Below, in pieces: positions 544 through 47,392 of a stretch of DNA of 49,115 bases (position 1 is the first letter of the stretch; every line of letters starts with the position of its first letter). The stretch covers positions 1 to 49,115 of the IMG/VR virus record IMGVR_UViG_3300017971_000369. The stretch is one strand, 5' to 3'. The position numbers were made by a program, and so were the translations under genes. The notes beneath the pieces were generated by a model. That model was not told the DNA's origin. It was given only the letters and a program-made list of their open reading frames with translations, and searched no databases. Source of the DNA: a virus.

Positions 544-584
544 GTTTTCTTTCCAGGTAACAAACGGAAGGCCGCCGAGCGGCC
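544..584 (+). promoter_or_regulatory. Recurrent leader element, copy 1 (variant)
   Basis: GTTTTCTTTCCAG at 544-556 is followed by an A-rich spacer and a hairpin with stem GGCCGC (570-575) and GCGGCC (579-584), loop CGA. The ribosome-binding site GAGGGAAG and the ATG at 603 follow. The stem sequence differs from the other copies but the layout is the same; the second hairpin is absent. Confidence 0.5.
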
Positions 585-602
585 CTGCAAGAGGGAAGTC
601 CG

Positions 603-1454
603 ATGGGTTTCGACTACACAGCATTCGCCTCCATTCCCGGAATCGAGGACGTCCGACAGACCGTCGAGTCTGAAATCTTCTGGGGCCCGTTCGAGTACAA
701 CCGTGCGTTCATCGTCCCCTGCTTCATTGACGCAAGCGGGACGCGGGACACCGGCGGCAGCCCGACCACCTTGATCCGCGCCGGAATGCTAATGGGTCAA
801 ATCCGGTCCAGCAAACTGCTGGTCGAGTGGAACCCTGCGGGGACCGATGGGTCGGAAGAAATTTACGGCCCGCTTCTCTACTCCCAGCAAACGCAACTCC
901 AAGGAACCGACAAAGACCGTTGGTTTGGATTCTGCGCGGTGGGTGGAAATGTCAAAGCTGCCAAGCTGCTTGTTCCTGGCGCTAGCTCCGCAGGGATCGA
1001 CGGGTCCGCGTACGAGTACGAAGTGGTTCGCCAGATGGCCGGTCGATTCAACTTCGACGGTCTCTACAACGTGTACAAAACGTCAGCACTGTACGGTGGC
1101 TGGCGAAAAGTCGTTGCGAAGACCGCTGACTACACGTTGACGGTTGACGACACCGGGTGCATTTTCACCAACACCGGCGAAACCGATCTGCTGACATTGA
1201 CTCTGCCTGCGGTTGCCAACAACCGAGGTCTTCGGTACGGCGTCTACGTCACCAACGATGCTGGAATCTCCATCGCGTCTGCTGCGGGGGACGACATCGT
1301 ATGCGACAACGATGCCGCCGCAGATTCGGTTACGGTTAGCACGACCGGGAAGTGTATCGGAACGTTCATCGAAATCCTCGGAGTTGGCGGCTCCGCTTGG
1401 TACACGATTACGCATCTCGCCGCCAGTGATCATGTGATTACCATCGCGACGTAA
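603..1454 (+). CDS. Putative head decoration protein
   Basis: 283 aa. The ATG at 603 has GAGGGAAG about 5 bases upstream. Residues ~55-130 resemble head decoration proteins of the lambda gpD type: a stretch (residues ~59-66, IRAGMLMG) like the 'aGtvlG' motif, then an acidic-glycine turn and a short strand near GGNVKAAKLLVPG. The C-terminal ~120 residues are Thr/Ala/Val-rich and look like a separate beta-sandwich found in phage structural proteins. It sits between the protease/scaffold gene and the major capsid gene, the usual place for a decoration or stabilisation protein. The family call is by resemblance only. Confidence 0.5.
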   Translation: MGFDYTAFASIPGIEDVRQTVESEIFWGPFEYNRAFIVPCFIDASGTRDTGGSPTTLIRAGMLMGQIRSSKLLVEWNPAGTDGSEEIYGPLLYSQQTQLQGTDKDRWFGFCAVGGNVKAAKLLVPGASSAGIDGSAYEYEVVRQMAGRFNFDGLYNVYKTSALYGGWRKVVAKTADYTLTVDDTGCIFTNTGETDLLTLTLPAVANNRGLRYGVYVTNDAGISIASAAGDDIVCDNDAAADSVTVSTTGKCIGTFIEILGVGGSAWYTITHLAASDHVITIAT

Positions 1455-1502
1455 TTCGAAAACGGTTTTCAACAAAAGCTCCGCGTTTAGGAAACGGTAA
1501 AA

Positions 1503-2654: not shown

Positions 2655-2689
2655 TCGCAAGAGCATCGGAAGGCGTCTCCTTTTTCGGT

Positions 2690-2725
2690 GGGCGGGTGAG
2701 GCGAGGGACCTTGCCCGCCCTTTTT
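2690..2725 (+). terminator. Rho-independent terminator after the capsid gene
   Basis: Perfect 7-bp stem GGGCGGG (2690-2696) / CCCGCCC (2714-2720), a 17-nt loop, then TTTTT (2721-2725). It lies 36 bp after the capsid stop codon and just before the next leader element. Confidence 0.8.
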
Positions 2726-2730
2726 CGTGG

Positions 2731-2787
2731 TATTATCTCTCCAGTAGTCCCCGACGGGACGTCCGAAAACTAGTGAACAGGTGTACA
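2731..2787 (+). promoter_or_regulatory. Recurrent leader element, copy 2
   Basis: TATTATCTCTCCAG (2731-2744), hairpin GTCCC-CGAC-GGGAC (2747-2760), an A-rich spacer, then an imperfect second palindrome TGAAC-AGGT-GTACA (2773-2786) directly before ATG 2789. TATTAT could serve as a -10 box with the start of transcription near CTCTCC, but no good -35 box lies upstream here. Confidence 0.65.
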
Positions 2788-2788
2788 G

Positions 2789-5665
2789 ATGCCGAGACGT
2801 CCTTATTACATTCTTGCTGGATACAGAAGACGTCGCGTAACGGGGTTCTCTTGGACCAAGGTCACCAACCAGGTCATTCGCTACAACCCATCGGACACGG
2901 ACAATCCACCGGTAACGCGGACCAGTGCCAGTTTCGATGGGACGAACTGGTTGGCAGCGACTACGGCCAACTTTCGGTCAGCCGATTCTAGTGGATCGAT
3001 CTTCGGATGGGTGTACATTCCCGCAACGACGGCAACCCAGACCATCTTTTCAACCGCTGATACGGCCACAGCCAATTACTACCTGGCACTGAGTATCCTC
3101 GGGACCGGTGCGTTTCAGATCGACCAGAAGAACAATGACACTGCTGATCAAGTCGCAACGACCGACACGGGATACGATGATGGTGCATGGCACTTTGTTG
3201 AACTACGGTCGAGTGGTACGGCGTGGTCCATTCGCGTTGACAAGACGGATTTGACACTTGACACACCAGCCAGTGGGACCAACAGTGGCGATTGGTTTGC
3301 GGATACCACGGCGCGGGACAACGTAGTTCTCGGTGCGTTGGTTACAAGCTCTACCAGCCAAAACATGATTGGCCGGCTGGACCACTTCTACATCACCAAC
3401 ACACCTCTGACGGACACCGAGCACGATTATCTAGCGGACAACAAATTAGGTTTTGACGACGCCGAAGCCTACCTTGGCTCTGGCCGAATCGTTTTCGCCC
3501 CGCCCCTGAACAACACGTCCCCTGGCGTCTGGCCGGACCTGTCCGCCAGCGAGTTACACCTGACCGAGTACGGGACTGCTAAGGGGGTGACGTTTGCTAG
3601 TGCGAGTAGTCAGTATGCTAGTAGTGACGCAACGCCGACTGGTGCTTATCCGATAGCAATGGGATGCAGTTTTAAAACTACGTCCTCACCAGATACTAGT
3701 ACGCAAGGCTTGATATGGTTTGGCGACAAAGACTCAAGTGACGACTTTCAGGCTTTATTTCTTTTGGGTGGTACCGATGTGGTAGCACGATCCATTAGCA
3801 ACTCTGATGCGGCCCGTGATGCCAGAAGTACAGGAATCAACCCTGATGATGGCGCGTGGCATGCCATTGGTGGGATTTTCACTAGCTCCAGTAGGACTGT
3901 TGTGGTTGAAGGGGATAGCGTTACCGAATCAACAGCACAAGCAATAGGTGTGACGTATGATAGATTATCCATTGCTATGTTCCGGGACGCAAGTCCGAAC
4001 AATCCGTTCAATGGCACGTTAGATAATTGTTGGTTATATCAAGGTGGTACAGCGCTAACTGTGGCGCAGGTAAATTGGCTCCGCACCGGCGGCCCCTCTG
4101 GCGGCCCTGCCACTTACCGCGATGTACAGACTTCCAACCACCCCGATAATCCGGGCATCTCCAATCTGCGGGCCTGGTACAAACTGAACGAATCAAGTGG
4201 AACCACGCTGGTCAACGTCCACAACCCAGGAACGTATGACCTAACCACTCAGAACAGCCCGACACTCGGTGCCACCGGCCACGTGATCGACTACCCTGGC
4301 TGGGCAGACGGGACGGTGGAAGCGGATACGGAAGTGGAAGATCGGGCACTGAGGTTCAATGGGACGAATCAGTATGCTTCCAGAGCGGTAACCGGGTTTC
4401 GCAGCACGGATACAACGGGTTCATGGTCGTTTTGGTTTCAAGAGTCTAAAATTGGTACTGCAAACATTGCTTTGATCGGGTCCAGTGATGGCGGTACGGG
4501 AAACAACACAGTTGAAATATATCTTACTACTACGTCCAAATTGCAACTACTGTTGCGTACGGGTGGGGCGAATTTATCAGGAATTATTTCCGACGCGACG
4601 TTCGTAAATAACACCCTACATCATGTAGTCGTTGTATCTAACGGCACGGACTACGACCTATACGTGAATGGGTCTCCAAGCACGTTCGCGGTAAACGTCG
4701 CTGACGACGGCAAATGGTATGCAGCCGTTGGTTCAAGGACCAATTTGACGTTTGCCTCAAGGGTGCGTTCATCGGCTCAAGATTACATGACGGGTGTAAT
4801 TGACGAGCCGATGTATTTTAATTCAGCGCTAAACACGGACGACGCATCAGAACTTTACAACGGCGGCGCTGGCGTTTTAGCCGCCGACCTGATCAGCGGT
4901 GCCGTATCACTCACCAGTGGCAAGAAACCCATCCACGCATGGCCTCTCAATTCCCGTAGTGCCGCAGGGGCTACCGCAGACATCGGCACCACAGGCGGTC
5001 TGACCCTAACGCTCAACAATTCCCCCACCGACGCCGCAGGCATCCCAGCGGGGCGAGTGATCGGGGGAAGCGTGTACAAACTGCCGGACCTGTCGGGCAA
5101 CTCACGCAACGCATTGCAAACGGACATCACTAAGCGGCGGTGGCTGTCCTCGGAATCTGTGGGAACCGTGTTGTCCGGGGATACGGTTAGCAAGTATCTA
5201 CAGACAGCATCGTTTACGGCAGTATCTCAGCCGACGACCGTAGTACTCGTGACCAAGGTAACAGCACCCACAACGGCCCAATCTATGTTTGACGGAATTG
5301 CAGCGGCCAATGAGCACGGCGTGAGAACAAAAGTCACGACGGGGGTCATCCAAATTGACGGCGGAACCGAGGTAGACGGTACCGCAACCGTCGATGCGGC
5401 CACATGGACCATCTGGACGATCATCTTCAACGGTGCATCCAGTAAAATCTATAAGAACGGCGGGACACCGCAGACGGTCAACGCCGGGTCCGAGGGTATC
5501 ACCGGTGCGACCATCGGGGCCTTGTACGATGGCACGCTGGCAATGGGCGGCAGCCACGGCGACATCATGGTCAAGGAAGGTGCGATCAGTGTAGCCAATC
5601 ACAATGCGATGGGACGGTATCTGGCCACCATCTACGGAATTACATGGAACACAGTGTCGGCATGA
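2789..5665 (+). CDS. Tail fibre/adhesin with about four LamG-like domains
   Basis: 958 aa. I see four consecutive concanavalin-A/LamG-like modules (roughly residues 35-225, 262-435, 460-700, 760-958). They carry repeated signatures: 'FDGTNWLAATT', 'FASASSQYASS', 'FNGTNQYASRA' at the start, 'DDGAWH' or 'VNNTLHHVVVVSNGT' strands in the middle, and a final '(I/L)D..(Y/W)(I/F)... L' strand with an Ala-Asp/Glu helix. Such jelly rolls bind glycans or protein surfaces, so a host-recognition or virion-surface role is inferred. No signal peptide. DNA of modules 2 and 3 (about 3590-4080 and 4440-4860) looks more AT-rich than its surroundings, suggesting module exchange. Confidence 0.65.
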   Translation: MPRRPYYILAGYRRRRVTGFSWTKVTNQVIRYNPSDTDNPPVTRTSASFDGTNWLAATTANFRSADSSGSIFGWVYIPATTATQTIFSTADTATANYYLALSILGTGAFQIDQKNNDTADQVATTDTGYDDGAWHFVELRSSGTAWSIRVDKTDLTLDTPASGTNSGDWFADTTARDNVVLGALVTSSTSQNMIGRLDHFYITNTPLTDTEHDYLADNKLGFDDAEAYLGSGRIVFAPPLNNTSPGVWPDLSASELHLTEYGTAKGVTFASASSQYASSDATPTGAYPIAMGCSFKTTSSPDTSTQGLIWFGDKDSSDDFQALFLLGGTDVVARSISNSDAARDARSTGINPDDGAWHAIGGIFTSSSRTVVVEGDSVTESTAQAIGVTYDRLSIAMFRDASPNNPFNGTLDNCWLYQGGTALTVAQVNWLRTGGPSGGPATYRDVQTSNHPDNPGISNLRAWYKLNESSGTTLVNVHNPGTYDLTTQNSPTLGATGHVIDYPGWADGTVEADTEVEDRALRFNGTNQYASRAVTGFRSTDTTGSWSFWFQESKIGTANIALIGSSDGGTGNNTVEIYLTTTSKLQLLLRTGGANLSGIISDATFVNNTLHHVVVVSNGTDYDLYVNGSPSTFAVNVADDGKWYAAVGSRTNLTFASRVRSSAQDYMTGVIDEPMYFNSALNTDDASELYNGGAGVLAADLISGAVSLTSGKKPIHAWPLNSRSAAGATADIGTTGGLTLTLNNSPTDAAGIPAGRVIGGSVYKLPDLSGNSRNALQTDITKRRWLSSESVGTVLSGDTVSKYLQTASFTAVSQPTTVVLVTKVTAPTTAQSMFDGIAAANEHGVRTKVTTGVIQIDGGTEVDGTATVDAATWTIWTIIFNGASSKIYKNGGTPQTVNAGSEGITGATIGALYDGTLAMGGSHGDIMVKEGAISVANHNAMGRYLATIYGITWNTVSA

Positions 5666-8235: not shown

Positions 8236-8640
8236 ATGCAAACCGTCAAGGCACGATTTCGGGGCCAAAACCCAGACGACCGATCCCTTACCATTCCTGC
8301 CGGCGAGCCGGTTCGGATTGAACTGTGGTCCGAGGCACACTATTACGGGCCGAAGATTGACTCGTACGACGGATTGTTACCAGACGCGGAGGATCCCCAC
8401 GCCGGCCCACAACCCAACAAGGATCGACCTGGTACGCTGAAGATTACGGAACACGGATTGCTTGGTGATGGGGACGGTGTATGGCTGGTCGCGCAGATGG
8501 ATGAGCCAGACGCCGTGGCCATTTTGCAGGTCTACTGTCATTCCATTTACCCGCACCCGTTTGCCGACGATCAAACAAAGTACATGCAAGCCAAGTTGGC
8601 GTTGCTTGTTTCAACGAGAACCGATTTTGAATTGCTTTAA
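8236..8640 (+). CDS. Hypothetical virion-region protein
   Basis: 134 aa, with AAAGGACG just before the ATG. The sequence is hydrophilic with several likely beta strands (SLTIPAGEPVRIEL, TLKITEHGLL, VWLVAQMDEPDAVAILQVYC) and no membrane segment or known motif. It lies between the beta-helix spike and another small structural-type protein, in the same transcriptional direction. I do not recognise the family; a small virion or chaperone role is possible only from context. Confidence 0.5.
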   Translation: MQTVKARFRGQNPDDRSLTIPAGEPVRIELWSEAHYYGPKIDSYDGLLPDAEDPHAGPQPNKDRPGTLKITEHGLLGDGDGVWLVAQMDEPDAVAILQVYCHSIYPHPFADDQTKYMQAKLALLVSTRTDFELL

Positions 8641-9008: not shown

Positions 9009-9065
9009 ATTTTCTCTCCAGAGATCCCGACGGGAACCCCAAAATTTAGTGTACGTTTGTATACT
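9009..9065 (+). promoter_or_regulatory. Recurrent leader element, copy 3
   Basis: ATTTTCTCTCCAG (9009-9021) directly after a TAG stop; hairpin TCCC-GAC-GGGA (9025-9035); second hairpin AGTGTAC-GTTT-GTATACT (9048-9065), a 7-bp stem with one G-U pair; then GGAGAAAAG and ATG 9075. The opening TTTTCTCTCCAG is nearly complementary to the CTGGAGAAAA of the ribosome-binding site (9064-9073), so this leader could hide its own translation start. Confidence 0.65.
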
Positions 9066-9074
9066 GGAGAAAAG

Positions 9075-10852: not shown

Positions 10853-11428
10853 ATGTCATTTCTTGCAGGCCCTTTTGAGTTGTACCTCAGTCCGTACGCG
10901 GGCGCAACGCCGGGGCAAAGTGCGGTCCCGTTGGGAAAGACGCGAGACGGGATCGAGATAGAAATTGTCCGTAGTATGCAGCCGATTGCTGGCGACAACT
11001 ATGGAGCCGAGACGATTCAAGATTTCATCATGCAGGGCGGGAATTGCTTTCTCAATTTTACCCTGATCGAATGGAATGCCTCCGGCATGTCAACGTTGTT
11101 GAACATGTACGGATCGTCTGGATACGTCGGCCCTTTCGGTTGCAGTGCGAAGGAAGATGCGTTGCAACTGGGGATCGGCTTAATCTCTACCGCATGTGGG
11201 ACAAACATTACCCCGGACCACTATCACTTTGAAGGCGTGGTCATTCCGCCAAACTCTCCCATACGCTATGCGCTGAGCAGTCGACTCCGCGAGGTTCCGT
11301 TCCGTTTGCAAGCGTTGCCGTACGATCATAGCGGAAACGACCGTGTTAGCGGACAAGCTTTGGGCGGGTCCAATCCCGCATGGTACGTTGCAGACCCGAC
11401 AACCGACCCGCGAGCCAACTGGCCGTAA
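10853..11428 (+). CDS. Putative major tail tube protein
   Basis: 191 aa, with AAAGG directly after the previous stop. Features that fit tail tube proteins: an N-terminal beta hairpin, 'LGKTRDGIEIEIVRSMQPIAGDNYG' (a strand, then Asp-Gly and a Gly/Asn loop), and 'NFTLIEWNASGM'. It precedes a protein with tape-measure features, the canonical order. A long contractile sheath gene is not evident in the window, so a non-contractile tail is more likely. Confidence 0.6.
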   Translation: MSFLAGPFELYLSPYAGATPGQSAVPLGKTRDGIEIEIVRSMQPIAGDNYGAETIQDFIMQGGNCFLNFTLIEWNASGMSTLLNMYGSSGYVGPFGCSAKEDALQLGIGLISTACGTNITPDHYHFEGVVIPPNSPIRYALSSRLREVPFRLQALPYDHSGNDRVSGQALGGSNPAWYVADPTTDPRANWP

Positions 11429-12337: not shown

Positions 12338-14085
12338 TGTCCACCGTCGCATACAACGGCTACACGTTCCCTGCCTGGTCGCAAGTCCAGGTCCAGATGA
12401 ACTACATCCCAACGACGGGCAACATCCAAACGAAGTACGTCCAATACGTTGTATCGGTTTCGTCGATTATTTACGTTCCTTGCACAAGCGACAGTGCGTC
12501 GCTTGATCAAACCATGTCTCTCCTCCAAGCGCAGCTTGGCGTGGAGGGTCAAATCCTTTCTATAACCGACGCGGGTTTTGGTGCGAACTTCCGTATCGCC
12601 GCTGGAGGAAAAGCAGATGTTGCGCACGGTCCCAAACCCCGGTCATTCCAGTGGGAGCCTATCGGCACGCGAGCTGCAAGGATCACTTGGGTTGTGGAGC
12701 TGACGCTCCCGCGTTGTCCGCAGCAGCTTACGAACATCGCGGAATATGAATACTCGCTGACGTGGAACATCGCCGAGAACGGACTAACTGTACGGACGAT
12801 CACCGGTCAGTTGGAAATTGCAAACAACCACACCCGTCAGGGTTGGCAAGGGTCCTTTGGAACGAAGTTTATTGACACGGCGGATGCGTACCGAAACCGG
12901 ATCTCCTTCGAACCGTTGGATAACTTTCAGCGTAGCCAATCCTTTTCTTTGTCCCCCGACAAACGTGTACTATCGTTCACTATCACCGATTCGGAGATTC
13001 CTTCGGACAATCCGTACTACCCCGGCATCGTTACTCCCCGCGTTTCTTACACTGTGCGAAGCACCGCTGAATACCTTTCCGGTAACTCCGTTTGGGCGGT
13101 CAATCTGTCGGGGTCTTTCGAGGTTGCTCCAGGCTACCACAAACGCACCGCATACCTTGCGATGTTCGAGATTATCCGAACACTTCGCAACGCATTGAAA
13201 AACTCCAAGTCTTACGCGGGACGCGGCCCCGCGTACACGTCTCCTGGAGATGAAGAAAAGCCGGGCAGCTCGGTTATCTTGCGAAGCTTACAAATCACCG
13301 ATGAGATATTTTCCCGAAACGTTTCCATCTCTCTAGAGTGGCACTTACTGTGCTCCCTTAAAGAGCTGATCTCCGCTTCCGGTTTGTGGGATCCTCTACC
13401 GAAAGAATCTACGTGGGAACGGTGGCGCGCGAGCATGGCGAACGTCCAACGTCCCCGTGGATTTGCAAACCTCTTCGACAGGAACGAAGATGTAATCATT
13501 GGCCTTTGCAGCACGCAAGGTTTTGTTTCTCCAGGAGACGACCCGGAAGTCAATCCGCCTTCGGATAAACAGGACCCAACGATTACATCAGATGCGCCAC
13601 CTCCGGGTCGGAGCTGGCTTAATTTTCAAAACGACATTTTCATCGAAGAGGATACGAACACCGCAACCCACCGTAGGCTGTCGGAGCCAAAAAGCTATTC
13701 GCAAATGCCGTCCGATCAAGCGTACCTAAACTCTCAAGTCGGAAACCTTGCGTCCTTCTCTCCGGGGTACAGCGGGGCGTCGCAGGACCGCAAGGTTTCT
13801 GTTTTACAAACGCGAGGCGAGCCGCATTACAACGTGGTTCTGGAAGGGAGAGCTGTCCGCGCCGTGTACGGAATTCCGATTCCTGCTTTGCTCCAGATTG
13901 GCGGCTTGGCCATGCAAAACCAACGTCCGCAATCTCGAAGGTTCAAATACAAAGAGTTCCGAACAGCGGACAACCTGCCGATGTACGCGGCGGTCTGGCA
14001 GATCAAGTATTCCATCCCCGGAATACCGGTCGGAGATTTGACACAAAACATTCAACTCGCGGGGGAGGCTTTCAACATCGGATAG
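12337..14085 (+). CDS. Large tail protein, possible distal tail/hub component
   Basis: 582 aa; its ATG overlaps the previous TAA (TAATG). The protein is mostly beta-rich without a signal peptide. I see two similar halves: each has a strand cluster ending in a 'W.(V/I)E/N LT(L/W)' or 'SLEWHLL' motif (residues ~105-145 and ~335-350), suggesting an internal duplication like the tandem beta domains of baseplate hub or distal tail proteins. A disordered Pro/Asp-rich linker (~residues 405-430) separates a C-terminal domain. It lies after the tape-measure-like gene, where tail-tip proteins are expected. I do not recognise a precise family. Confidence 0.5.
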   Translation: MSTVAYNGYTFPAWSQVQVQMNYIPTTGNIQTKYVQYVVSVSSIIYVPCTSDSASLDQTMSLLQAQLGVEGQILSITDAGFGANFRIAAGGKADVAHGPKPRSFQWEPIGTRAARITWVVELTLPRCPQQLTNIAEYEYSLTWNIAENGLTVRTITGQLEIANNHTRQGWQGSFGTKFIDTADAYRNRISFEPLDNFQRSQSFSLSPDKRVLSFTITDSEIPSDNPYYPGIVTPRVSYTVRSTAEYLSGNSVWAVNLSGSFEVAPGYHKRTAYLAMFEIIRTLRNALKNSKSYAGRGPAYTSPGDEEKPGSSVILRSLQITDEIFSRNVSISLEWHLLCSLKELISASGLWDPLPKESTWERWRASMANVQRPRGFANLFDRNEDVIIGLCSTQGFVSPGDDPEVNPPSDKQDPTITSDAPPPGRSWLNFQNDIFIEEDTNTATHRRLSEPKSYSQMPSDQAYLNSQVGNLASFSPGYSGASQDRKVSVLQTRGEPHYNVVLEGRAVRAVYGIPIPALLQIGGLAMQNQRPQSRRFKYKEFRTADNLPMYAAVWQIKYSIPGIPVGDLTQNIQLAGEAFNIG

Positions 14086-14095: not shown

Positions 14096-14634
14096 GTGGA
14101 CGATGTGTACAAAGTTTCACTAGTAGACAACCCTACATTATCTATCCAGTTACCCGACGGGAACTCCCTGGCCGTCGACCTTTTCGAGGCTCAAGATACC
14201 GTCGAATCCCTGGAAAGGAAAGTTGTGGAATCCGAAGGGTCGGAGAAGGACCTCTACGCAGCCCTCCGAGACTGGGTTCGGGAGAAATCGGACGGGTGCG
14301 AAATCACGCTGTCACAAGCGTCGCTTCTCCACCGGGCGATTGTGTATAATTACTTGGATTTCAAAAAAAAAGTCGCGACGCGGTTTCCGTTGGATACTGG
14401 TATCGGCTCGACCCCCGAACCCTCAGCAGAGCAGACATCCGACTTTTGAAGGACCTTTTGCCGGTCGTTCTGGCGGAACGGGAATTGCAGCAGAGACAAG
14501 CAGCGGCGCCACTTAGTCCGGAGCGGCTTCGCTACTTGCTCTACACGTCCACAGGGGACTGGAAGTATACGGACCACGAGGTAGCCCGCTACCTGCTGGA
14601 TTTGGCGAAGCGGGGGGATTTCCATGATCACTAA
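14096..14634 (+). CDS. Tail-region protein made by probable programmed -1 frameshift (two products)
   Basis: GTG 14096 has AGGAG 6-10 bases upstream. The zero-frame product stops at 14447-14449 (117 aa). Nine adenines at 14363-14371, read AAA AAA AAA in the zero frame, form a classical A-AAA-AAA slip site. After a -1 slip the frame stays open to the TAA at 14632-14634 and gives about 179 aa. The -1 frame after the slip (DAVSVGYWYRLDPRTLSR, then a helical region ending DWKYTDHEVARYLL) looks more protein-like than the zero-frame tail (VATRFPLDTGIGSTPEPSAE). No ATG starts the downstream frame. This resembles the lambda G/GT tail chaperone arrangement, although here it precedes the portal gene rather than the tape measure. 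Confidence 0.6.
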
Positions 14635-15769
14635 GACAAGCTTGCTCGGGCCGCCCAAAACTGCTGGATACCGTCCTGCTGTTGCGGGGTACTATGCATT
14701 GTACGTCCACCGAAAGCCGGTTTGGACGCTGGGGTACGTCGAGCTGATGCTTTCCGATCCGCGGATTCGGTTCGGTCTCCGCCTGATCAAAGGACCTCTC
14801 TTGGCGAACCTCCGGTATGAGGTGAAATGCCGCCGCCAGGACGTAGGGCAATTCATCGACGCGAACTTGACCCGATTCATCCAAAACAGTGCGATGAAAG
14901 CCCTCCGGGCAATTGAGTGGGGGTACGTGGGGCACGAGGTGCTCTATCGCGTTGACGAGCGAAACCGGATTGCGTTTGATACGCTGAAATACATCCATCC
15001 CCGCGACGTAAAGCCGCTCGTTCTGGCAGACGAGATTGCTTCCGCGTCCGTTCAAATCCACGGGGGTTCTCGCGGAAAGGTCTACTTGAACGGTCCCAAG
15101 CTGTTTTGGCACATCCACGAACGTGAGTACGATCCCTACTTCGGTTGCTCCCGGCTCAAGGGAACCTTCGATCCCTGGTGGGACATCTACAGCGATGGCG
15201 GAGCCAAAGACGCAAGGCGTCTCTACTTCTACAAATACCTCTACTCCGGGGACGTGCTGTATTATCCTCCAGAGGATGGAACGACAAACGTAGAGGGGCA
15301 GTCGCAATCGAACCGCGAGCTGGCGCTTGAGATTGTCAACAAGCGACGGACAGGTGGAACCCTTGTTCTTCCCAACACGGTTGACCCGGATACAAATCAG
15401 CGGTTATGGGAAATTTCGGCGGGGACGTCCACAATTCCGTCGGCGGATATTCGTGAAGTCATCGCAGATTTGAAGGATGAAGAGTGGGAGGGTATGGGAA
15501 TCCCTCCCGAAGTTGCACGCGCCGAAGGCACGGGGGCGTTTGCGGGTCGGCGCGTTCCGCAGCAAGCATTTTTCTCGATCTTGCAGGAGTTGGCATTTTG
15601 GTTAGTCACCGACACTGATCGCCAAATAATCAAGCCGTTGGTCAACATGAACTTTGGCAATGTTCCGTACGAAATTGAAACGTTGCCGCTACTCCGCGAG
15701 TCGGAGACGCCAGGAGAAGAAGCTGTCCCCGTGGAACCGGAAGAACACGTTCAAGTCGAAGCAACCTAG
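14624..15769 (+). CDS. Portal protein (Mu gp29/DUF935-like)
   Basis: 381 aa. ATG 14624 overlaps the end of the preceding frame by 11 bases. The portal is the dodecameric ring through which DNA enters and leaves the head. Support: 'VELMLSDPRIRFGLRLIKGPLLANLRYEVKC' (the 'mL.D..i...l...k..v....w.v' opening of portal families), a helical clip-like region 'MKALRAIEWGYVGHEVLYRV', 'RRLYFYKYLYSGDVLYYPPEDGTT', and a C-terminal segment 'FAGRRVPQQAFFSILQELAFWLVTD...II' like the portal stem/crown region. The acidic C-terminus is disordered. Its position far from terminase and after the tail genes is unusual. Confidence 0.65.
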   Translation: MITKTSLLGPPKTAGYRPAVAGYYALYVHRKPVWTLGYVELMLSDPRIRFGLRLIKGPLLANLRYEVKCRRQDVGQFIDANLTRFIQNSAMKALRAIEWGYVGHEVLYRVDERNRIAFDTLKYIHPRDVKPLVLADEIASASVQIHGGSRGKVYLNGPKLFWHIHEREYDPYFGCSRLKGTFDPWWDIYSDGGAKDARRLYFYKYLYSGDVLYYPPEDGTTNVEGQSQSNRELALEIVNKRRTGGTLVLPNTVDPDTNQRLWEISAGTSTIPSADIREVIADLKDEEWEGMGIPPEVARAEGTGAFAGRRVPQQAFFSILQELAFWLVTDTDRQIIKPLVNMNFGNVPYEIETLPLLRESETPGEEAVPVEPEEHVQVEAT

Positions 15770-15786: not shown

Positions 15787-16224
15787 ATGTGGGATGAAAT
15801 TAAAGGACACCTAATACCTTGGGTGTTGGCTGTGGTCACCGCGCTGACAACTTGGCTTACACATCGAGCATGGAAACTGATTTCCTGGAAAGAAAAGATA
15901 GATAGCGACTTTGCCCGCGTCCGGGACAAAGTTTCTGTTGACCACGACCGGATCTCTGATCTGTTGAGGTGGGCGGAAGTGGCAAAACAAACCGATCAAC
16001 GCCACGAAGAAGTTATCCGGCATGTGGTTGATCTGCAATCGACACAAACCACACAACTCGTTCGGATGGAAACATCGTTGGAAGGCATTCGCGATACGCT
16101 GGAAAGGTACGTTTCAACGCAAAACGGTAGTTTGGCCTCCGTAAAGAATGAGCTGTCTGAAATTCGATCCAACTGCATGGCCCACCTGCTGAGTCTGGAA
16201 AAGAAAAGGAAAGAGTCAAGCTGA
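15787..16224 (+). CDS. Membrane-anchored coiled-coil protein (holin-like candidate)
   Basis: 145 aa. One N-terminal transmembrane helix (residues ~8-30, LIPWVLAVVTALTTWLTHRAW) is followed by a long amphipathic helix with heptad spacing to residue ~140 and a Lys-rich end. This topology is found in several small phage proteins of uncertain role, including holin and spanin-like proteins. It stops in TGATG with the next gene. I would not assign lysis firmly without a neighbouring endolysin. Confidence 0.55.
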   Translation: MWDEIKGHLIPWVLAVVTALTTWLTHRAWKLISWKEKIDSDFARVRDKVSVDHDRISDLLRWAEVAKQTDQRHEEVIRHVVDLQSTQTTQLVRMETSLEGIRDTLERYVSTQNGSLASVKNELSEIRSNCMAHLLSLEKKRKESS

Positions 16225-16607: not shown

Positions 16608-16657
16608 GTTTTCTCTCCAGAGATCCCGGCGGGAACTTCAAAAATAGACAGGTGTCA
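16608..16657 (+). promoter_or_regulatory. Recurrent leader element, copy 4
   Basis: GTTTTCTCTCCAG (16608-16620) directly after TAG; hairpin TCCC-GGC-GGGA (16624-16634); A-rich spacer; second hairpin TAGAC-AGGT-GTCA (16645-16657); ATG at 16660. Here the second hairpin occupies the place of the ribosome-binding site. Confidence 0.65.
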
Positions 16658-16659: not shown

Positions 16660-16794
16660 ATGCCGTTGACAAAGAAAGGACGAAAGGTCATGCGGGCGAT
16701 GCGTCGTCAGTATGGCTCTTCCAAAGGAAAGCGGGTATTCTACGCTTCTGCGAACAAAGGAACCATCAAAGGCGTTCATAAGAAACGTGGTTAA
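16660..16794 (+). CDS. Tiny basic protein (common phage small ORF type)
   Basis: 44 aa, 'MPLTKKGRKVMRAMRRQYGSS...' with a central 'GKRVFYASANKGTIKGV' segment. The combination of PLTKKG at the start, an MRRQYG helix end and VFYASxNKGxIxGV is, from memory, a very widespread small phage protein of unknown function. It starts right after leader element copy 4 and its TAA overlaps the next ATG (TAATG). Confidence 0.75.
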   Translation: MPLTKKGRKVMRAMRRQYGSSKGKRVFYASANKGTIKGVHKKRG

Positions 16795-22035: not shown

Positions 22036-22260
22036 ATGAGTGGTGTCTGGATTCGAGTCGTCATTGCGGCTCTCAAGATTATCTCCCGGTTCATCGAAGA
22101 CCCGGAGATGAAGAAGATTCTGGAAGAGTTAATCGCCATCCTCGAAGAACTCTTCCAGAACCCCAACGCGATCAACGAAGACGATTCAAAGGCCGAACTT
22201 GTCGCCCAGTATGAAAAGTGCCTGCTTCGCTCTCGTAATCGCGACGTATCGAAGATTTGA
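22036..22260 (+). CDS. Small amphipathic helical protein
   Basis: 74 aa; ATG 22036 with AAAGGAG 8 bases upstream. The N-terminus is hydrophobic (VWIRVVIAALKIISRFI) and the middle is an acidic amphipathic helix (EMKKILEELIAILEELF). It might be a small membrane-associated protein, but the hydrophobic segment is short. Its last 75 bases overlap, tail to tail, the end of the helicase gene on the other strand. No family recognised. Confidence 0.45.
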   Translation: MSGVWIRVVIAALKIISRFIEDPEMKKILEELIAILEELFQNPNAINEDDSKAELVAQYEKCLLRSRNRDVSKI

Positions 22261-24995: not shown

Positions 24996-25010
24996 TGTGA
25001 AACCCCCTAA

Positions 25011-25056
25011 AAGAAGGGGGGGTGCGGTTTCCCGTCACCCCCCTGGAAAGATAACC
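25011..25056 (-). promoter_or_regulatory. Minus-strand leader-like element and terminator hairpin
   Basis: Read on the minus strand: GGTTATCTTTCCAG (25056-25043), then hairpin GGGGGGTG / CACCCCCC (25043-25036 and 25024-25017) whose loop holds TGACGGGAA-like sequence, then TTCTTTT. The opening matches the plus-strand leader elements; the hairpin with its T-rich end also fits a rho-independent terminator for the gene ending at 25068. Confidence 0.5.
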
Positions 25057-25751: not shown

Positions 25752-25779
25752 ATTATAACCCCCTCTTAGAGTTTGTCAA
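25752..25779 (-). promoter_or_regulatory. Near-consensus sigma70 promoter, leftward early unit
   Basis: On the minus strand TTGACA (25779-25774), 16 bp, TATAAT (25757-25752). Its -35 box is exactly 24 bp from block A, the same distance as at the rightward promoter. It should drive 25619 and the genes down to the helicase. Confidence 0.8.
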
Positions 25780-28776: not shown

Positions 28777-28826
28777 GTTTTCTCTCCAGGTTCCCGACTG
28801 GGCATCTGAAAATTGACAATTGTCTA
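28777..28826 (+). promoter_or_regulatory. Recurrent leader element, copy 5
   Basis: GTTTTCTCTCCAG (28777-28789) after TAG; hairpin core CCC-GACT-GGG (28793-28802); AAAA; second hairpin TTGAC-AATT-GTCTA (28813-28826); AGAAAGG and ATG 28840. Confidence 0.65.
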
Positions 28827-32293: not shown

Positions 32294-32345
32294 GTTTTCT
32301 CTCCAGTAGTCCCGGTGGGACACTCAAAATTCTACAACTGTATAG
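32294..32345 (+). promoter_or_regulatory. Recurrent leader element, copy 6
   Basis: GTTTTCTCTCCAG (32294-32306) shortly after TAG; hairpin GTCCC-GGT-GGGAC (32309-32321); CAAAAT; weaker second hairpin TCTAC-AACT-GTATA (32331-32344) with one mismatch; AGAAAGG; ATG 32359. Confidence 0.65.
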
Positions 32346-35693: not shown

Positions 35694-35733
35694 GTTTTCT
35701 GTCCAGTGGCCCTCCGGAGAAATCCCCGGAGGG
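35694..35733 (+). promoter_or_regulatory. Recurrent leader element, copy 7 (variant)
   Basis: GTTTTCTGTCCAG (35694-35706) followed by an 8-bp hairpin CCCTCCGG (35710-35717) / CCGGAGGG (35726-35733). Hairpin 2 is not recognisable. The TTAGGGAGG ribosome-binding site and ATG 35767 follow. Confidence 0.55.
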
Positions 35734-35766
35734 TCCATCTCTTTCTGAACCTTTAGGGAGGCGACG

Positions 35767-37852: not shown

Positions 37853-37881
37853 TTGACCCCCTCCGCATGGCGTGGTATTAT
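37853..37881 (+). promoter_or_regulatory. Sigma70-type promoter before leader element copy 8
   Basis: TTGACC (37853-37858), exactly 17 bp, TATTAT (37876-37881), with transcription expected to start in CTCTCC. This is the one copy where a full promoter is joined to the leader element, so the element would form the very 5' end of the transcript. Confidence 0.65.
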
Positions 37882-37920
37882 CTCTCCAGTAGTCCTTGAC
37901 GGGACATTCGAAATTTTGAA
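37876..37920 (+). promoter_or_regulatory. Recurrent leader element, copy 8
   Basis: TATTATCTCTCCAG (37876-37889), hairpin GTCCT-TGAC-GGGAC (37892-37905) with a U-G pair, AAATTTTG, and GAATTGTCC without a clear second hairpin. CTCTCC could pair with GGAGGGAG (37938-37945), the ribosome-binding site of the 37952 gene. Confidence 0.65.
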
Positions 37921-37951
37921 TTGTCCGCATCAAATACGGAGGGAGTTAATC

Positions 37952-39560: not shown

Positions 39561-40199
39561 ATGGCAGACGCGAATCTCGAACGTCTTGGCAAACCGTTGT
39601 CCACTAAAAAACGCCGGGGCCGCCAACCCAAACTCGAATGGTTCCGACGGTACGACCCCGAAGGATATGCCGCCGCGTTGAAGTTCATCGAACTCGGTGC
39701 GTACGACTACGTCGTCTTCGAAGCGATGGGAGTAACCGCCGCGACATTCTACCGCTGGCTAGAGCGCGGAGAAGAGGATAACTGTCCATCTGTATACCGC
39801 GAATTCCTTGAAGACGTGATGCGGGCAAGAGCACGCGCCCGCGTTCTTGTCGAGATAGACGTGCGTAGAGATAAACCCGATTTCTGGCTCCGCTGCGGCC
39901 CCGGTCGTTCCCGTCCCGGTCGCGAAGGTTGGACCGAAACCCGCGAGATGGACATCCGCGTCAATGGGCAATCCGCAGCAACCGTTGTTGTCGAAGACCA
40001 GGTCTCCCAAGAGGAGCTGGCAGAAACGCTCCGCGTGGTCCAGACCCTTGGTTTCGTCTCCAGTGACCCCGACGGGAATTCCGAAGAATTAGGGGATGAA
40101 ACAGGGGTTGACAGCACCCCTAATTTAACCGATAATGGAAAGAATGGGGATCCTTCGGATAACAACGGAAAACGAAAAGGGAGGAAACGCGATGCGTAG
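39561..40199 (+). CDS. terS: Small terminase subunit
   Basis: 212 aa; GGGAGG upstream. An N-terminal helix-turn-helix ('ALKFIELGAYDYVVFEAMGVTAATFYRWLERGEED') binds the packaging site. A central helical region (VYREFLEDVMRARARARVLVEIDV) would oligomerise, and the C-terminus is acidic then basic. It is two genes upstream of the large terminase, with one small membrane protein between. The C-terminal coding part contains an in-frame copy of the leader element and a promoter-like sequence. Confidence 0.7.
   Translation: MADANLERLGKPLSTKKRRGRQPKLEWFRRYDPEGYAAALKFIELGAYDYVVFEAMGVTAATFYRWLERGEEDNCPSVYREFLEDVMRARARARVLVEIDVRRDKPDFWLRCGPGRSRPGREGWTETREMDIRVNGQSAATVVVEDQVSQEELAETLRVVQTLGFVSSDPDGNSEELGDETGVDSTPNLTDNGKNGDPSDNNGKRKGRKRDA
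40052..40076 (+). repeat. In-frame degenerate copy of the leader element inside terS
   Basis: TTTCGTCTCCAG (40052-40063) and hairpin core CCC-GAC-GGG (40068-40076), then AATTCC. Translated as part of the small terminase (VSSDPDGNS). Confidence 0.5.
40108..40136 (+). promoter_or_regulatory. Sigma70-type promoter inside the end of terS
   Basis: TTGACA (40108-40113), 17 bp, GATAAT (40131-40136). It would transcribe the small membrane protein and large terminase genes. It lies 32 bp after the in-frame leader element copy. Confidence 0.55.
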
Positions 40200-40418: not shown

Positions 40419-41852
40419 ATGGTCGCAATCACCGAAGCAATCCGAAAAGCTTTCACCCTTCGGCTGACGAAGTACATCGCACATCAACCCACAATCAAGC
40501 AACGAGTTTTCCTCGCACTGACCCCGTATGAAGAAGTCCTGTTCGGCGGCGCTGCAGGTCCTGGAAAGTCGGACGCTCTCCTGATGGCGGCTTTGCAATT
40601 TGTCGACGTCGCGGGTTATCACGCATTGATCTTGCGACGCACGTATGCGCAGCTCTCCAAATCCGACGGTCTCATCCCCCGCTCCCACGAATGGTTGCAC
40701 GACACCGATGCACGTTGGAACGGCGGCGGAAAGGTTTGGTCCTTCCCGTCCGGAGCTACGCTATCCTTCGGACATGTTCAGTATGAAGACAACAAGTATG
40801 ACTATCAATCAGCGGCTTACACCTTCATCGGTTTTGACGAGCTGACGCAATTCACCGAATCACAATACCTCTACATTGGGTTTTCCCGACGTCGTCGTCT
40901 CCGCGATATGTCGGTCCCGCTCCGCGTTCGGTCAGCAACTAATCCGCCGCCAGACCAGCGGGGTCGTTGGGTCCGGGATCGCTTCGCGATTCACAAGGAC
41001 GAGCGGTCGGGGGAGTTCATCGGACACGAGCCGAACCGTCCGTTTGTCCCTGCCAAAATCTCCGACAATCCGTATCTGGATCAGGAGGAATACGAGACGG
41101 CCCTTGCCGAGCTGGACCCGGTCACCCGCGAGCAATTGCTTTCCGGAGACTGGGAGATTATGCAAGTCGGTCGGATGCGAAAGTCGTGGGCACGCTACTA
41201 CAACATCACCTCTGACGCATACCAACTACTGGACCCCGTCACCGGTCGTGGTTTTCGCAATGTGAAAAAGCGAGACTGCCATCACTTCCAAATCTGCGAT
41301 CCCGCAGCGTCTGCCCGCGAAGGTCCTGGAGACGAACAGATCTGGGAGCGGAAGATGCCGTCCCACACGGTGATCGGGACGTTCGCAATGACCCCGGACG
41401 CGGACCTGCTTTGGATCGACAACCGCAGGTTTCAAGGCGAAGTCCCAGAGGTTCAAGACGCTTTGCTGGAGGAGTATTCCAAATGGCAGCAATGCACCCA
41501 CGTCGGGATTGAAAAGAGCGGTCTTGGCATCGGTGTCTTCCAATGGGCGAAGCGCAGCGGTCTTCCCGTCCGCGCGTTGTCCCCACAGTCGCAAGACAAA
41601 CTAGTCCGGGCAACCGACTTCATCAACAGACTGTACGAGGGGATGGTTTATTTCCCGAACGCTCCCTCGGATTGGCGTAGGGAACTATTCGACGAGCTTT
41701 TCGCGTGGACCGGTCACCCGCACGAACAAGACGATCAGATTGATGTGGCCGGTTATGCGGGACGTGAGGTGACCCGGTTGCGAGGACCGATTCCGATCCG
41801 TAGACGGATTCGACAGATCGAGCGACCCGTCGTCGCGGGCGGACTGCGTTAG
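40419..41852 (+). CDS. terL: Large terminase subunit (ATPase and nuclease)
   Basis: 477 aa from ATG 40419. ATPase: Walker A 'LFGGAAGPGKSDALL' (41-55), Walker B 'YTFIGFDELTQF' (134-145), coupling motif region 'VRSATNPP' (170-177). Nuclease: RNase H-like acidic residues 'FQICDPAAS' (D294), 'VGIEKSG' (E365) and 'EQDDQIDVAGYA' (D438/D439/D442). This is the packaging motor that translocates and cuts DNA. The length is usual for the family. Confidence 0.92.
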   Translation: MVAITEAIRKAFTLRLTKYIAHQPTIKQRVFLALTPYEEVLFGGAAGPGKSDALLMAALQFVDVAGYHALILRRTYAQLSKSDGLIPRSHEWLHDTDARWNGGGKVWSFPSGATLSFGHVQYEDNKYDYQSAAYTFIGFDELTQFTESQYLYIGFSRRRRLRDMSVPLRVRSATNPPPDQRGRWVRDRFAIHKDERSGEFIGHEPNRPFVPAKISDNPYLDQEEYETALAELDPVTREQLLSGDWEIMQVGRMRKSWARYYNITSDAYQLLDPVTGRGFRNVKKRDCHHFQICDPAASAREGPGDEQIWERKMPSHTVIGTFAMTPDADLLWIDNRRFQGEVPEVQDALLEEYSKWQQCTHVGIEKSGLGIGVFQWAKRSGLPVRALSPQSQDKLVRATDFINRLYEGMVYFPNAPSDWRRELFDELFAWTGHPHEQDDQIDVAGYAGREVTRLRGPIPIRRRIRQIERPVVAGGLR

Positions 41853-41900
41853 TTTTCTGTCCAGGGTTCCTACGGGACATTCCAAAAAAGACAATTGTCT
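41852..41900 (+). promoter_or_regulatory. Recurrent leader element, copy 9
   Basis: GTTTTCTGTCCAG (41852-41864) shares its first base with the terminase TAG; hairpin GTTCC-TAC-GGGAC (41866-41878) with a U-G pair; AAAAAA; second hairpin AGAC-AATT-GTCT (41889-41900); AGGAG; ATG 41914. Confidence 0.65.
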
Positions 41901-41913
41901 AGGAGAAAAAGTG

Positions 41914-42759
41914 ATGCGACATACGAGCCTGTTTGTTTTTGCGTTTCTTGCAACGATGTTGCTTTCGATGATTTGTCGCGGACAAACGACGTTGATTATG
42001 AATGCCAACCGTCAGACGGTGATTCGACCGTCGGACCCCAATGGAACGTACGGCGGTTTAGATGAGCTACCGGTTGATGCTGGAGACCAGATGCTGGTGC
42101 AATACTGGCTCCCATTTACCCAGCTTCCGGACGATTCGTTCGTCTTTTCCGTCCATGCGATTTTCTATCTTCAGGACTACGTAGATTCGCCGCGTCCGAT
42201 GGCGTCTCGGATGCTTCTCATTTGGGATAGTGCCGTCACGTGGTCGGAGACTGGAAGTGGTGGAGGTGGATGGAATACAACCCCTGGTATTCAATGGGGT
42301 GAGCGGGCAGTGCCGATAGCGCCTTATCGAGGGCTGACCTACGACATTGATAACAATCCGACGCCGCCGCCAGTTGCGCAGATGTGGATGGACATTACCG
42401 CAATTTGGAGAGAGTGGGAAAATGGCCAACCAAACCGTGGAATCGTAGTGGATGTAAGTCAGGGAGATATGGTGGTCTACGGAACAGGAACACCGTATCG
42501 CAGCGAGCTTTGGGTTTCCTATGCAATGCCTGGCGATGCCAACTTTGACGGTGTGTTCAATCAGTTGGACATTGTGCAGGTATTGCAGGAGGGCAAGTAC
42601 AACACCGGTCAATACGCGACTTGGAGACAAGGCGATTGGGACCGCGATGGTGTGTTCGGGCCGTTAGACATCGTGCTCGCATTGCAACAGACCGGTGACT
42701 ATGCGTACCAAACATCCAGCAATCCGGCGGTCACCGCGTTCGGTGAGGAGTGGGAATGA
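41914..42759 (+). CDS. Secreted protein with DNRLRE-like domain and dockerin-type repeats
   Basis: 281 aa. I prefer ATG 41914 to the GTG three bases before; AGGAG is 8-12 bases upstream. Residues 1-23 are a signal peptide (MRHTSLFVFAFLATMLLSM, then CRGQ). A beta-rich domain follows (~25-205, with 'VTWSETGSGGGGWNTTPGI' as in DNRLRE-type domains). The C-terminus has two dockerin-like Ca-binding repeats: 'GDANFDGVFNQLDIVQVLQ' and 'GDWDRDGVFGPLDIVLALQ', each with D-x-N/D-x-D-G. Such paired repeats are typical of planctomycete secreted proteins. In a phage it may be exported to the host surface. Confidence 0.7.
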   Translation: MRHTSLFVFAFLATMLLSMICRGQTTLIMNANRQTVIRPSDPNGTYGGLDELPVDAGDQMLVQYWLPFTQLPDDSFVFSVHAIFYLQDYVDSPRPMASRMLLIWDSAVTWSETGSGGGGWNTTPGIQWGERAVPIAPYRGLTYDIDNNPTPPPVAQMWMDITAIWREWENGQPNRGIVVDVSQGDMVVYGTGTPYRSELWVSYAMPGDANFDGVFNQLDIVQVLQEGKYNTGQYATWRQGDWDRDGVFGPLDIVLALQQTGDYAYQTSSNPAVTAFGEEWE

Positions 42760-45817: not shown

Positions 45818-47100
45818 TCGGTCAGCGTAATCAGACGCGCGTCGGGGAGACTTGCGTTGCTGATCTTCTTGTGCGGGTCGATGATTGTGCCCAACACGAC
45901 GCCGGAGGCGGTTGTAATCGTGACGGCATCGACCGCCTGCGAAGCATCGAAGGTTGCTTCTTCGTTGCTCATAACGAGTGTTCCAATGTCGGGAGAACTG
46001 CCGCCGCTCTGGCACTCTACCGTTCCGGGTCCGCTGATGGTGATGGTTCCCGCGACGGTGCAGCCCTTCAACATACGGAACGTCCCGGATTGGACGGTGA
46101 TGGTGGTGCTTGCGTGTGCCACCGCAGGTTCGATGATCAACGTTCCTCCGAGAACTTGAATCGTTGCCGCTGTACTTCCGATGGTTGTGGGGTTCCAGAT
46201 AGTCAACGTCCCACCACTGACTTCAATCTCCGAACCATCGAGCGTGCTTGCCGCTCCACCTTCTTTACTAATCTCAACCGTCCCGCCGCGGACTTCAATA
46301 TCGGTACCGCCCGTCGTTCCGATCAATTGCAACGCGGCGCGGTTGGTATCCAAAGCTCCACCAGTGTTGTGAACCACAATCGCCATCGCACTGGTGAGCG
46401 ATTTGATTCGCATCCGACCGGAGCCGCTCCCATCACCGCGACCGATAGTCAACGCGGTTGCGTCCAGCTCTAGATGCCGATCCAAAAACTCCGCATACCC
46501 GTTGGGGTTGTCATCTGGGAGACCGATAGTGGACGGCCCGAAGCTCTGGTCGATGTACACGTGCGCGAGCGGTGTGGTCAGTCCGTTCAACGCATCAAGG
46601 TCATAAAGAATGGGCGGCCCGCCTTGGATGTACAACGTATCTCCATCCGACGGTGCAGCGGGGGAACCTCCCGCGTTGTCTTCGTAATTGGCCGCCGCTC
46701 CCCAAACGTTCGGTCCCGCGTTCGCGGTGACGCTACCCTTGGTGATTGTGCCCGAGCCGGTCTTGGCTACGCCAAGCTGCGACGCTCCCGCGACATCTTC
46801 GTCAAACGGTGTGCCGGGCGTGTCCGCTGTCAGGTACACAAGACCGCTCCCTTCATCCGACGCGGTAATTCCGACCGCTCGCGGAGTGGTGCTCGCGTTG
46901 AATGCCGCGACTAGCCCCGCCGCAACATCGCTGACCGTGGGCGAAGCGGCTGTTTCCTGGTACGTCACCCGTCCCACCTCGACGCTGTCGTGATAGAAAA
47001 CGATGGAGTACGTATCGTTCTGTGCGGGGGAGCCGCCAATTGTAACGCTGATGACTTGTGCGACGGGTTCGGCCCGTCCGGTCCAACGAAGCGTGGCCAT
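45814..47100 (-). CDS. Beta-rich virion-type protein (planctomycete phage family)
   Basis: 428 aa; AAGGAA upstream. 'MATLRWTGRAEPVAQVISVTI', 'YSIVFYHDSVEVGRVTYQ', 'VSDVAAGLVAAFNAS', 'ITASDEGSGLVYLTADTPGTPF', 'GPNVWGAAANYEDNAGGSPAAPSDGDTLYI' are the pattern of a repeat-rich protein that I recall from planctomycete genomes and phages. After residue ~240 the sequence becomes a low-complexity beta solenoid (ITISGPGTVE, ATIQVLGGTLIIE). A structural or adhesion role is likely. It is on the minus strand among plus-strand virion genes. Confidence 0.5.
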   Translation of the reverse strand: MATLRWTGRAEPVAQVISVTIGGSPAQNDTYSIVFYHDSVEVGRVTYQETAASPTVSDVAAGLVAAFNASTTPRAVGITASDEGSGLVYLTADTPGTPFDEDVAGASQLGVAKTGSGTITKGSVTANAGPNVWGAAANYEDNAGGSPAAPSDGDTLYIQGGPPILYDLDALNGLTTPLAHVYIDQSFGPSTIGLPDDNPNGYAEFLDRHLELDATALTIGRGDGSGSGRMRIKSLTSAMAIVVHNTGGALDTNRAALQLIGTTGGTDIEVRGGTVEISKEGGAASTLDGSEIEVSGGTLTIWNPTTIGSTAATIQVLGGTLIIEPAVAHASTTITVQSGTFRMLKGCTVAGTITISGPGTVECQSGGSSPDIGTLVMSNEEATFDASQAVDAVTITTASGVVLGTIIDPHKKISNASLPDARLITLTD

Positions 47101-47130
47101 TGAAAAATTCCTTATGGGGTTTGTGACGCT

Positions 47131-47340
47131 TTAACCGCGCGGAGGTACTTTTCCCAGGTCCAAACCGTAAGGCCCTTTTAACCGCCGCGCCTGTCTTTGG
47201 TATCGTATCGACTTTGCCATTTGTTTTCGGACGTCAGAGCCTCGTTGGAATACACTTGGGTGCGTTCGTTTTGACGTCCCGTGTCGCGAAAACCTCTGGA
47301 CAGTTTTGACAACGCTCCGACGTTTCAGTTTCTTGGCCAT
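47131..47340 (-). CDS. Small very basic protein
   Basis: 69 aa, 'MAKKLKRRSVVKTVQRFSRH...', about 22 Lys/Arg. GGAGAG (minus strand) precedes the ATG; these bases are the reverse complement of the CTCTCC of leader element copy 10. A nucleic-acid-binding role fits the composition; no family recognised. Confidence 0.55.
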   Translation of the reverse strand: MAKKLKRRSVVKTVQRFSRHGTSKRTHPSVFQRGSDVRKQMAKSIRYQRQARRLKGPYGLDLGKVPPRG

Positions 47341-47392
47341 AGTTATCTCTCCAGTAGTCCTGACGGGACGTTCAAAAATAGACTAGTGTCTA
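47341..47392 (+). promoter_or_regulatory. Recurrent leader element, copy 10 (opposite to its neighbours)
   Basis: AGTTATCTCTCCAG (47341-47354), hairpin GTCCT-GAC-GGGAC (47357-47369), AAAAA, hairpin TAGAC-TAGT-GTCTA (47379-47392). The sequence reads in the plus direction, but both flanking genes are on the minus strand, and no plus-strand gene begins after it. Confidence 0.65.

Follow-up and report, generated by a model that had tools for sequence, protein, structure and literature searches.

Since 2011, short repeated elements associated with gene starts have been described in a small number of phage groups, with no function assigned to them. They include the SAS and ESAS of cluster K mycobacteriophages (PMC3203893, PMC11373665, PMC12699233). 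The SAS is a 13-bp asymmetric repeat with 11-19 copies per genome, situated in unusually long intergenic gaps and nearly always oriented with the genes; about half of the SAS are accompanied by an inverted repeat, and the sequence is essentially absent from host genomes. Some cluster K genomes carry a single SAS in the opposite orientation (PMC3203893), and ESAS sites contain putative SigA-like promoters (PMC11373665). In what follows we describe a cassette that resembles the SAS in these general respects, made up of a 13-nt repeat and an adjoining hairpin.

Genome and host

The window analyzed is the whole of IMG/VR virus record IMGVR_UViG_3300017971_000369 (49,115 bases). Its gene set is siphophage-like, with terminase, portal, major capsid, head-tail adaptor, PolA-type polymerase, primase, UvrD-type helicase and ERF recombinase genes, and the phage is an unclassified tailed phage. 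Queries with TerL, PolA, MCP, primase, portal and helicase gave no close relative, the matches being at best 48% (MCP, L084) or 36-38%. No tRNA was found in the record, and Rfam gave no match at gathering score and none at E values up to 5. The protein encoded at 47549-47809 matches DUF1580, a family known from the Planctomycetes. The product of 41911-42759 (plus strand) is a predicted secreted protein with dockerin-like repeats (GDANFDGVFNQLDIVQ) which resembles planctomycete proteins by eye, has no Pfam match, and is encoded directly downstream of a cassette. These two proteins make a planctomycete the probable host. Among the proteins scanned against PHROGs and Pfam, which cover part of the ORFs of a possibly incomplete record, no sigma factor or RNA polymerase was recognized, nor an integrase or repressor. 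Two further loci can be mentioned here. The UvrD-type helicase (22186-24528, minus strand) contains an insert of about 280 aa that looks intein-like by eye (CQPRGTKVLATGRGYVPIQDLKVGD ... LYIADEIATGN/S), the Pfam matches being confined to the helicase parts, and the rightward structural operon has at its head (47898-48335, plus strand) three very small ORFs in succession, of 43, 50 and 45 aa, which are rich in Arg/Lys and gave no PHROG match.

The repeated cassette

The core of the cassette is a 13-mer, RTTWTCTBTCCAG, and the repeat is real: 11 exact matches are present against 0.01 expected in shuffled sequence, a chance figure that is somewhat flattering since the same copies served to define the pattern. 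The shorter pattern used in an earlier, sequence-only reading of this DNA is also far above chance when up to 2 mismatches are allowed (37 matches versus 11). A T at position -3 is conserved as well, and the other upstream positions carry little information. That reading had listed ten copies of a leader element consisting of a short motif, a first hairpin (hairpin 1), an A-rich spacer, a second hairpin (hairpin 2) and a ribosome-binding site (RBS). All ten are present where it placed them, but the list was incomplete, an eleventh copy running from 25055 to 25043 on the minus strand. The copies are the following, together with a terminator and a promoter that adjoin two of them:

544-587, plus strand: variant copy; 13-mer GTTTTCTTTCCAG at 544-556, an exact match; unrelated hairpin GGCCGC-CGA-GCGGCC about 10 nt past the 13-mer, dG not unusual; leader of gene 603 (lambda gpD-like decoration protein; Pfam HDPD match below cut-off).
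2690-2720, plus strand: hairpin resembling an intrinsic terminator (12 bp, TTTTT), with its end 11 nt upstream of the 2732 copy.
2732-2783, plus strand: classical copy; 13-mer at 2732-2744, overlapped by an extended -10-like sequence (TGGTATTAT); hairpin 1 GUCCC-CGAC-GGGAC, no hairpin 2; leader of gene 2789.
9009-9066, plus strand: classical copy, its 13-mer immediately following a TAG stop; hairpin 1 UCCC-GAC-GGGA, different hairpin 2 AGUGUAC-GUUU-GUAUACU; leader of head-tail adaptor gene 9075.
16608-16656, plus strand: classical copy, its 13-mer immediately following a TAG stop; hairpin 1 UCCC-GGC-GGGA, hairpin 2 weak (3 bp); leader of a 44-aa gene (16660-16794).
24996-25055, minus strand: copy missed in the earlier list, between genes 25619-25068 and 24995-24789; 13-mer GTTATCTTTCCAG; unrelated strong terminator-like hairpin GGGGGGUG..CACCCCCC followed by UUCUUUU (dG -25.1, 0.1 percentile of 45-nt windows); leader of gene 24995-24789.
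28777-28826, plus strand: classical copy, its 13-mer immediately following a TAG stop; hairpin 1 CCC-GACU-GGG (imperfect), hairpin 2 GACAATTGTC; leader of gene 28840.
32294-32344, plus strand: classical copy, 3 nt past the ERF stop codon; hairpin 1 GUCCC-GGU-GGGAC, hairpin 2 containing a single mismatch and a G-C to U-A double change; leader of gene 32359.
35694-35737, plus strand: variant copy; 13-mer GTTTTCTGTCCAG; unrelated strong hairpin GGCCCUCCGG..CCGGAGGGUC (dG -21.2, 0.4 percentile of 45-nt windows); leader of primase gene 35767.
37853-37924, plus strand: sigma-70-like promoter and classical copy; TTGACC-17-TATTAT at 37853-37881 overlaps the 13-mer at 37877-37889; hairpin 1 GUCCU-UGAC-GGGAC, no hairpin 2; leader of gene 37952.
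41852-41901, plus strand: classical copy that begins within the TAG codon ending the terminase gene; hairpin 1 GUUCC-UAC-GGGAC, hairpin 2 AGACAATTGTCT; leader of gene 41911-42759.
47342-47392, plus strand: inverted classical copy, complete; it takes up precisely the space between ORFs 47545-47390 and 47340-47131, both on the minus strand.

All 11 copies are intergenic, and non-coding DNA makes up about 5.1% of the record, as calculated from a curated gene list in which some gene starts are approximate. Most of the longer co-directional gaps carry a copy. Where the leader could be measured (nine copies), the distance from the start of the motif to the start codon is 52-75 nt. As the sequence-only reading had remarked, several copies begin in a stop codon: four do so at or inside the stop, and a fifth lies 3 nt past one. 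An apparent enrichment of TAG stops before the element was not significant (p = 0.07, in a calculation that used the wrong gene end for the inverted copy). Since copies are found both in the leftward arm and among the structural genes, the cassette does not mark one temporal class. The 44-aa basic protein encoded behind the 16608 copy (16660-16794, plus strand) has homologues 45-66% identical in Puniceispirillum and Pelagibacter phages.

Ten of the 11 copies are oriented with their genes. The 47342 copy is inverted and, contrary to the earlier description, has neither RBS nor gene downstream in its own orientation. On its reverse complement, the far end of the cassette overlaps the TAG stop of ORF 47545-47390, and the complement of the 13-mer (CTGGAGAG) could act as the RBS (GGAGAG) of ORF 47340-47131. 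These flanking ORFs (51 and 69 aa) have no database matches and are likely real. Among the eight classical copies, identity falls from 0.90 in the 13-mer to 0.74 in hairpin 1, 0.64 in the spacer and 0.43 in the rest, which argues that they are not recent duplicates and that the 13-mer is the most constrained part.

Hairpins

A hairpin begins 0-3 nt after the 13-mer in 10 of the 11 copies. In eight it is a homologous RTYCY-loop-GGGA (GUCCY/GGGAC) stem, and the GUCCC/GGGAC hairpin with a 3-4 nt loop that had been described is correct for these, but only for these, and is imperfect at 28777. The A-rich spacer and the U-G pairs of hairpin 1 at 37877, 41852 and 47342 are likewise as described. The two-hairpin layout does not hold as a general description: hairpin 2 occurs in about six copies, being of the UAGAC/GUCUA type at 16608, 28777, 32294, 41852 and 47342 and different at 9009, but is absent from five (544, 2732, 25055, 35694 and 37877). 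Its replacement at 9009 by a sequence that still pairs is genuine, although it amounts to one event.

The classical hairpins alone prove little, because a stem of at least 5 pairs occurs in such a position at 11% of random positions and because the classical copies are copies of each other; their folding energies are ordinary for the genome (18th-69th percentile). The claim that the stems covary was not borne out. Hairpin 1 has no double changes, four of its pairs varying on one side only and always to U-G, and its paired fraction was reached by 141 of 500 shuffles, whereas hairpin 2 has a single double change among five copies (G-C to U-A, at 32294), which 191 of 500 shuffles equaled. The stems therefore do not covary beyond shuffles, an outcome that the sequence-only reading itself had named as speaking against it. 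Better evidence for structure comes from the copies at 25055 and 35694, in which the downstream sequence is unrelated to that of the classical copies: in spite of this, very strong hairpins start 0-1 nt past the motif, with stabilities in the top 0.1-0.4% of all 45-nt windows. The evidence from these two copies is weakened by the possibility that such hairpins, lying in gaps, are no more than terminators. Translation control through complementarity of CTCTCC to the RBS, another earlier suggestion, found no backing, as pairing to the downstream RBSs was no stronger than to other starts (p = 0.26). Two covariance-model matches in coding sequence were not counted, both being probably codon-level coincidences (CCCGACGGGAAN, Pro-Asp-Gly-Asn); one lies at 40051-40098 (plus strand; 23 bits, rough E 0.005) within the terminase small-subunit gene and the other at 14137.

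Occurrence in other genomes

In IMG/VR, the hairpin pattern had one match, a chance match inside an ORF, and a second pattern had none. GTDB genomes gave 13 single matches scattered over unrelated phyla, fewer than the approximately 20 expected by chance for a pattern of this length. The motif is absent from L084, the nearest relative by capsid protein (48%), and a model of 51 positions run over 0.66 Mb of distant relatives returned nothing better than E 0.5. Look-alikes of the 13-mer in L014 were rejected. The lack of copies in related phages, the other outcome that the sequence-only reading had named against itself, thus comes from searches that brought up no close relative.

Sets of other elements, comparable to the present cassette in layout and placement, are carried by two distant PolA relatives. 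The L005 contig (minus strand of L087) has about nine copies of GATTTAWTCCCACGTT, for example at 575-590, 4706-4721, 11106-11121 and 15242-15257, many of which overlap a TGA stop and lie just before an RBS; in 20 kb of L087 there are 7 copies versus 0.01 expected. The L006 contig (minus strand of L089) has about ten copies of CCAATAAACCCCACGTTT, for example at 1577-1590, 8529-8542 and 13690-13703, which mostly precede an RBS and start codon. CCCACGTT is common to the elements of both contigs. In a motif scan of about 90 loci, several other relatives proved to have motifs that recur in their gaps, and some of these motifs look like plain sigma-70 hexamers. It could be, though we regard it as rather doubtful, that distinct phage lineages each keep about ten stop-adjacent cassettes that punctuate the genome, and that in the present phage these consist of a 13-nt signal and a hairpin selected by position and not by sequence, with a candidate phage factor as the reader.

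Promoters and proposed mechanism

The earlier judgment that the element is a recurrent leader and not a plain sigma-70 promoter stands. A -10 and -35 with a spacer of 16-18 bp are found on one of the 11 copies, the TTGACC-17-TATTAT at 37853, which had been correctly reported; no other copy bears a sigma-70 promoter-like site. Nine of the 11 have no acceptable sigma-70 -10 or -35, and there is no -35 information upstream of the 13-mer. TATTAT occurs in the same register in two copies (2732 and 37877), of which only 37877 has the TTGACC-17. Since sigma-70 promoters also occur without a cassette, at 25779 on the minus strand (12/12) and 27957 on the plus strand (10/12), conventional early-promoter reading by the host enzyme is probable. 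Intrinsic terminators are present between gene blocks.

The reading that we prefer, with a probability of roughly 0.4, is that the cassette is a lineage-specific element fixing where the transcript of a gene block has its 5′ end, by initiation near the CCAG, so giving the block a hairpin-headed leader. One cassette would stand at the head of each block, between the final stop codon of the preceding block and the block's own first RBS, and the 13-mer with its T at -3 would be the recognition sequence. At 2732 and 37877 a sigma-70 extended -10 (TGGTATTAT) could serve in that register, and the remaining copies would need a phage or host factor reading the 13-mer. With initiation 6-7 nt after the -10, the RNA would start where the 13-mer ends and have hairpin 1 close to its 5′ terminus, and the downstream part would become an A-rich leader of about 40-60 nt that may stabilize or isolate the block mRNA. 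Stable phage leaders with a 5′ hairpin do exist, as for T7 gene 10. The register of TATTAT in two copies and the terminator ending 11 nt before 2732 suggest that new transcripts start at cassettes, and from such sequence features we infer a new 5′ end that initiation would make and the hairpin would protect. Initiation is ranked first because the -10 register would put hairpin 1 near the 5′ end of the RNA. Against it, a role for the RNA would more readily account for the strict exclusion of the cassette from coding sequence, the inverted 47342 copy has no gene after it in its own direction, and copies are found in the leftward arm, below the perfect sigma-70 promoter at 25779, as well as among the structural genes.

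Close behind initiation, because nine copies have no recognizable -10, comes an intercistronic element acting at the RNA level, which we consider a tentative possibility: on read-through transcripts, the 13-mer and hairpin would be bound or cut by an RNA-binding protein or nuclease, separating the blocks and setting their stability or translation. The sense orientation of 10 of the 11 copies relative to the genes, the position of all copies outside translated sequence with four abutting a stop codon, the presence of a hairpin even where its sequence is unrelated (25055 and 35694), and the occurrence in both leftward and rightward arms would all be consistent with this. However, there is no covariation beyond shuffles, one copy is inverted, and the terminator above 2732 and the -10s overlapping 2732 and 37877 would keep the 13-mer out of most RNA at those places. 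An inverted copy is easier to accommodate if the cassette is a DNA-binding site, that is, an oriented stoperator-like or ESAS-like operator for a phage regulator, with the dyads as half-sites and not RNA hairpins. The strong sequence constraint on the 13-mer and a possible DNA-binding protein (DUF1580, 47549-47809) also point in this direction, which is the one that the SAS/ESAS authors favored for their inverted repeats (PMC3203893). We nevertheless find an operator unlikely, as the dyads differ, being unrelated at 25055, 35694 and 544, whereas the asymmetric 13-mer is retained; an operator could lie within coding sequence, from which all copies are absent, and no integrase or repressor was recognized among the proteins scanned.

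Very improbable, in our view, is a nut/put antitermination site in which the 13-mer is boxA-like, the hairpin boxB-like and the reader a small arginine-rich phage protein. The size and order of the parts (a linear motif, 2-3 nt, a hairpin of 4-5 bp) do recall nut sites, several tiny Arg/Lys-rich ORFs are at hand (e.g. 47898-48029 and 48029-48181), and intrinsic terminators lie between blocks. Yet two promoter-proximal sites are normally enough and there are 11 here, the unrelated hairpins of three copies would be intolerable for a boxB-type contact, and the GCUCUU core of boxA is absent from the 13-mer. Least probable of all is selfish or passive spread, by which a small mobile cassette without any regulatory function would have multiplied from gap to gap. 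Its discrete edges, the TAG stop available from both ends and the exact fit of the inverted copy into its gap are what one might look for in such a cassette, but the strong divergence everywhere except in the 13-mer points to selection on the 13-mer, and 10 of the 11 copies are oriented with the genes.

Comparison with known systems

The present cassette agrees with the SAS in count and placement, with 11 copies, all in gaps and 10 of them in gene orientation. It differs in that the SAS (GGGATAGGAGCCC) takes in the RBS, sits 3-9 bp from the start codon and is found at non-structural genes only, whereas the present 13-mer (RTTWTCTBTCCAG) is pyrimidine-rich, lies 52-75 nt upstream, has its inverted repeat after and not before it, and serves structural as well as replication genes. 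In contrast to the ESAS, with 17-bp imperfect inverted repeats and SigA-like -35/-10 sequences, the classical copies have arms of 4-5 bp and a full sigma-70-like promoter is found on one of the 11 copies. Because consensus, distance and arm length all fail to agree, the cassette is not a member of SAS or ESAS.

The nearest architectural match is provided by the leaders of Gordonia phage CaiB (cluster DR; PMC9302106), in which a conserved upstream block, a GC-rich hairpin and a conserved RBS precede several genes. In CaiB (L110) we examined five minus-strand copies, at 15885, 35453, 37828, 40268 and 41543, composed of TGTTGTG, a conserved GC-rich hairpin of 5-7 bp and, directly after it, the RBS or start. 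There is no sequence similarity to the present cassette and the blocks lie within 40 nt of the start; they were reported upstream of six genes, in announcement passages that do not mention the hairpin (PMC9302106). The PeSLs of T4-like phages (Arbiol 2010, Comeau 2014), as far as they are summarized in PMC4503421, are mobile intergenic regulatory cassettes in which a promoter and a stem-loop are combined. The stem-loop is present here, but PeSLs have an early sigma-70 promoter, whereas here a full one occurs on one copy only, at 37853, with an extended -10 alone at 2732. Citrobacter phage Mordin has a 26-bp SAS-like repeat before the start of 8 genes, its function not known; the sequence is unrelated, the consensus contains a GGAG RBS, and no hairpin was reported (PMC4611695). 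The cluster A stoperators and cluster O 17-bp repeats (PMC3203893, PMC4351075) resemble the cassette as many dispersed short repeats, and stoperators are in addition asymmetric and oriented with transcription. However, stoperators bind the repressor in temperate phages, and the cluster O repeats are dyads, about a third of which lie in coding sequence (PMC3203893, PMC4351075).

With a planctomycete as the probable host, the cassette would in addition give such phages a regulatory signal, a subject on which our literature search turned up little. Since motif, hairpin and start codon are physically separate, and variants lacking each part as well as an inverted copy are present, it offers a good natural mutant series. 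In its layout it belongs to the loose kind of element begun by SAS and ESAS, of which the Mordin repeat and the CaiB leaders are further cases.
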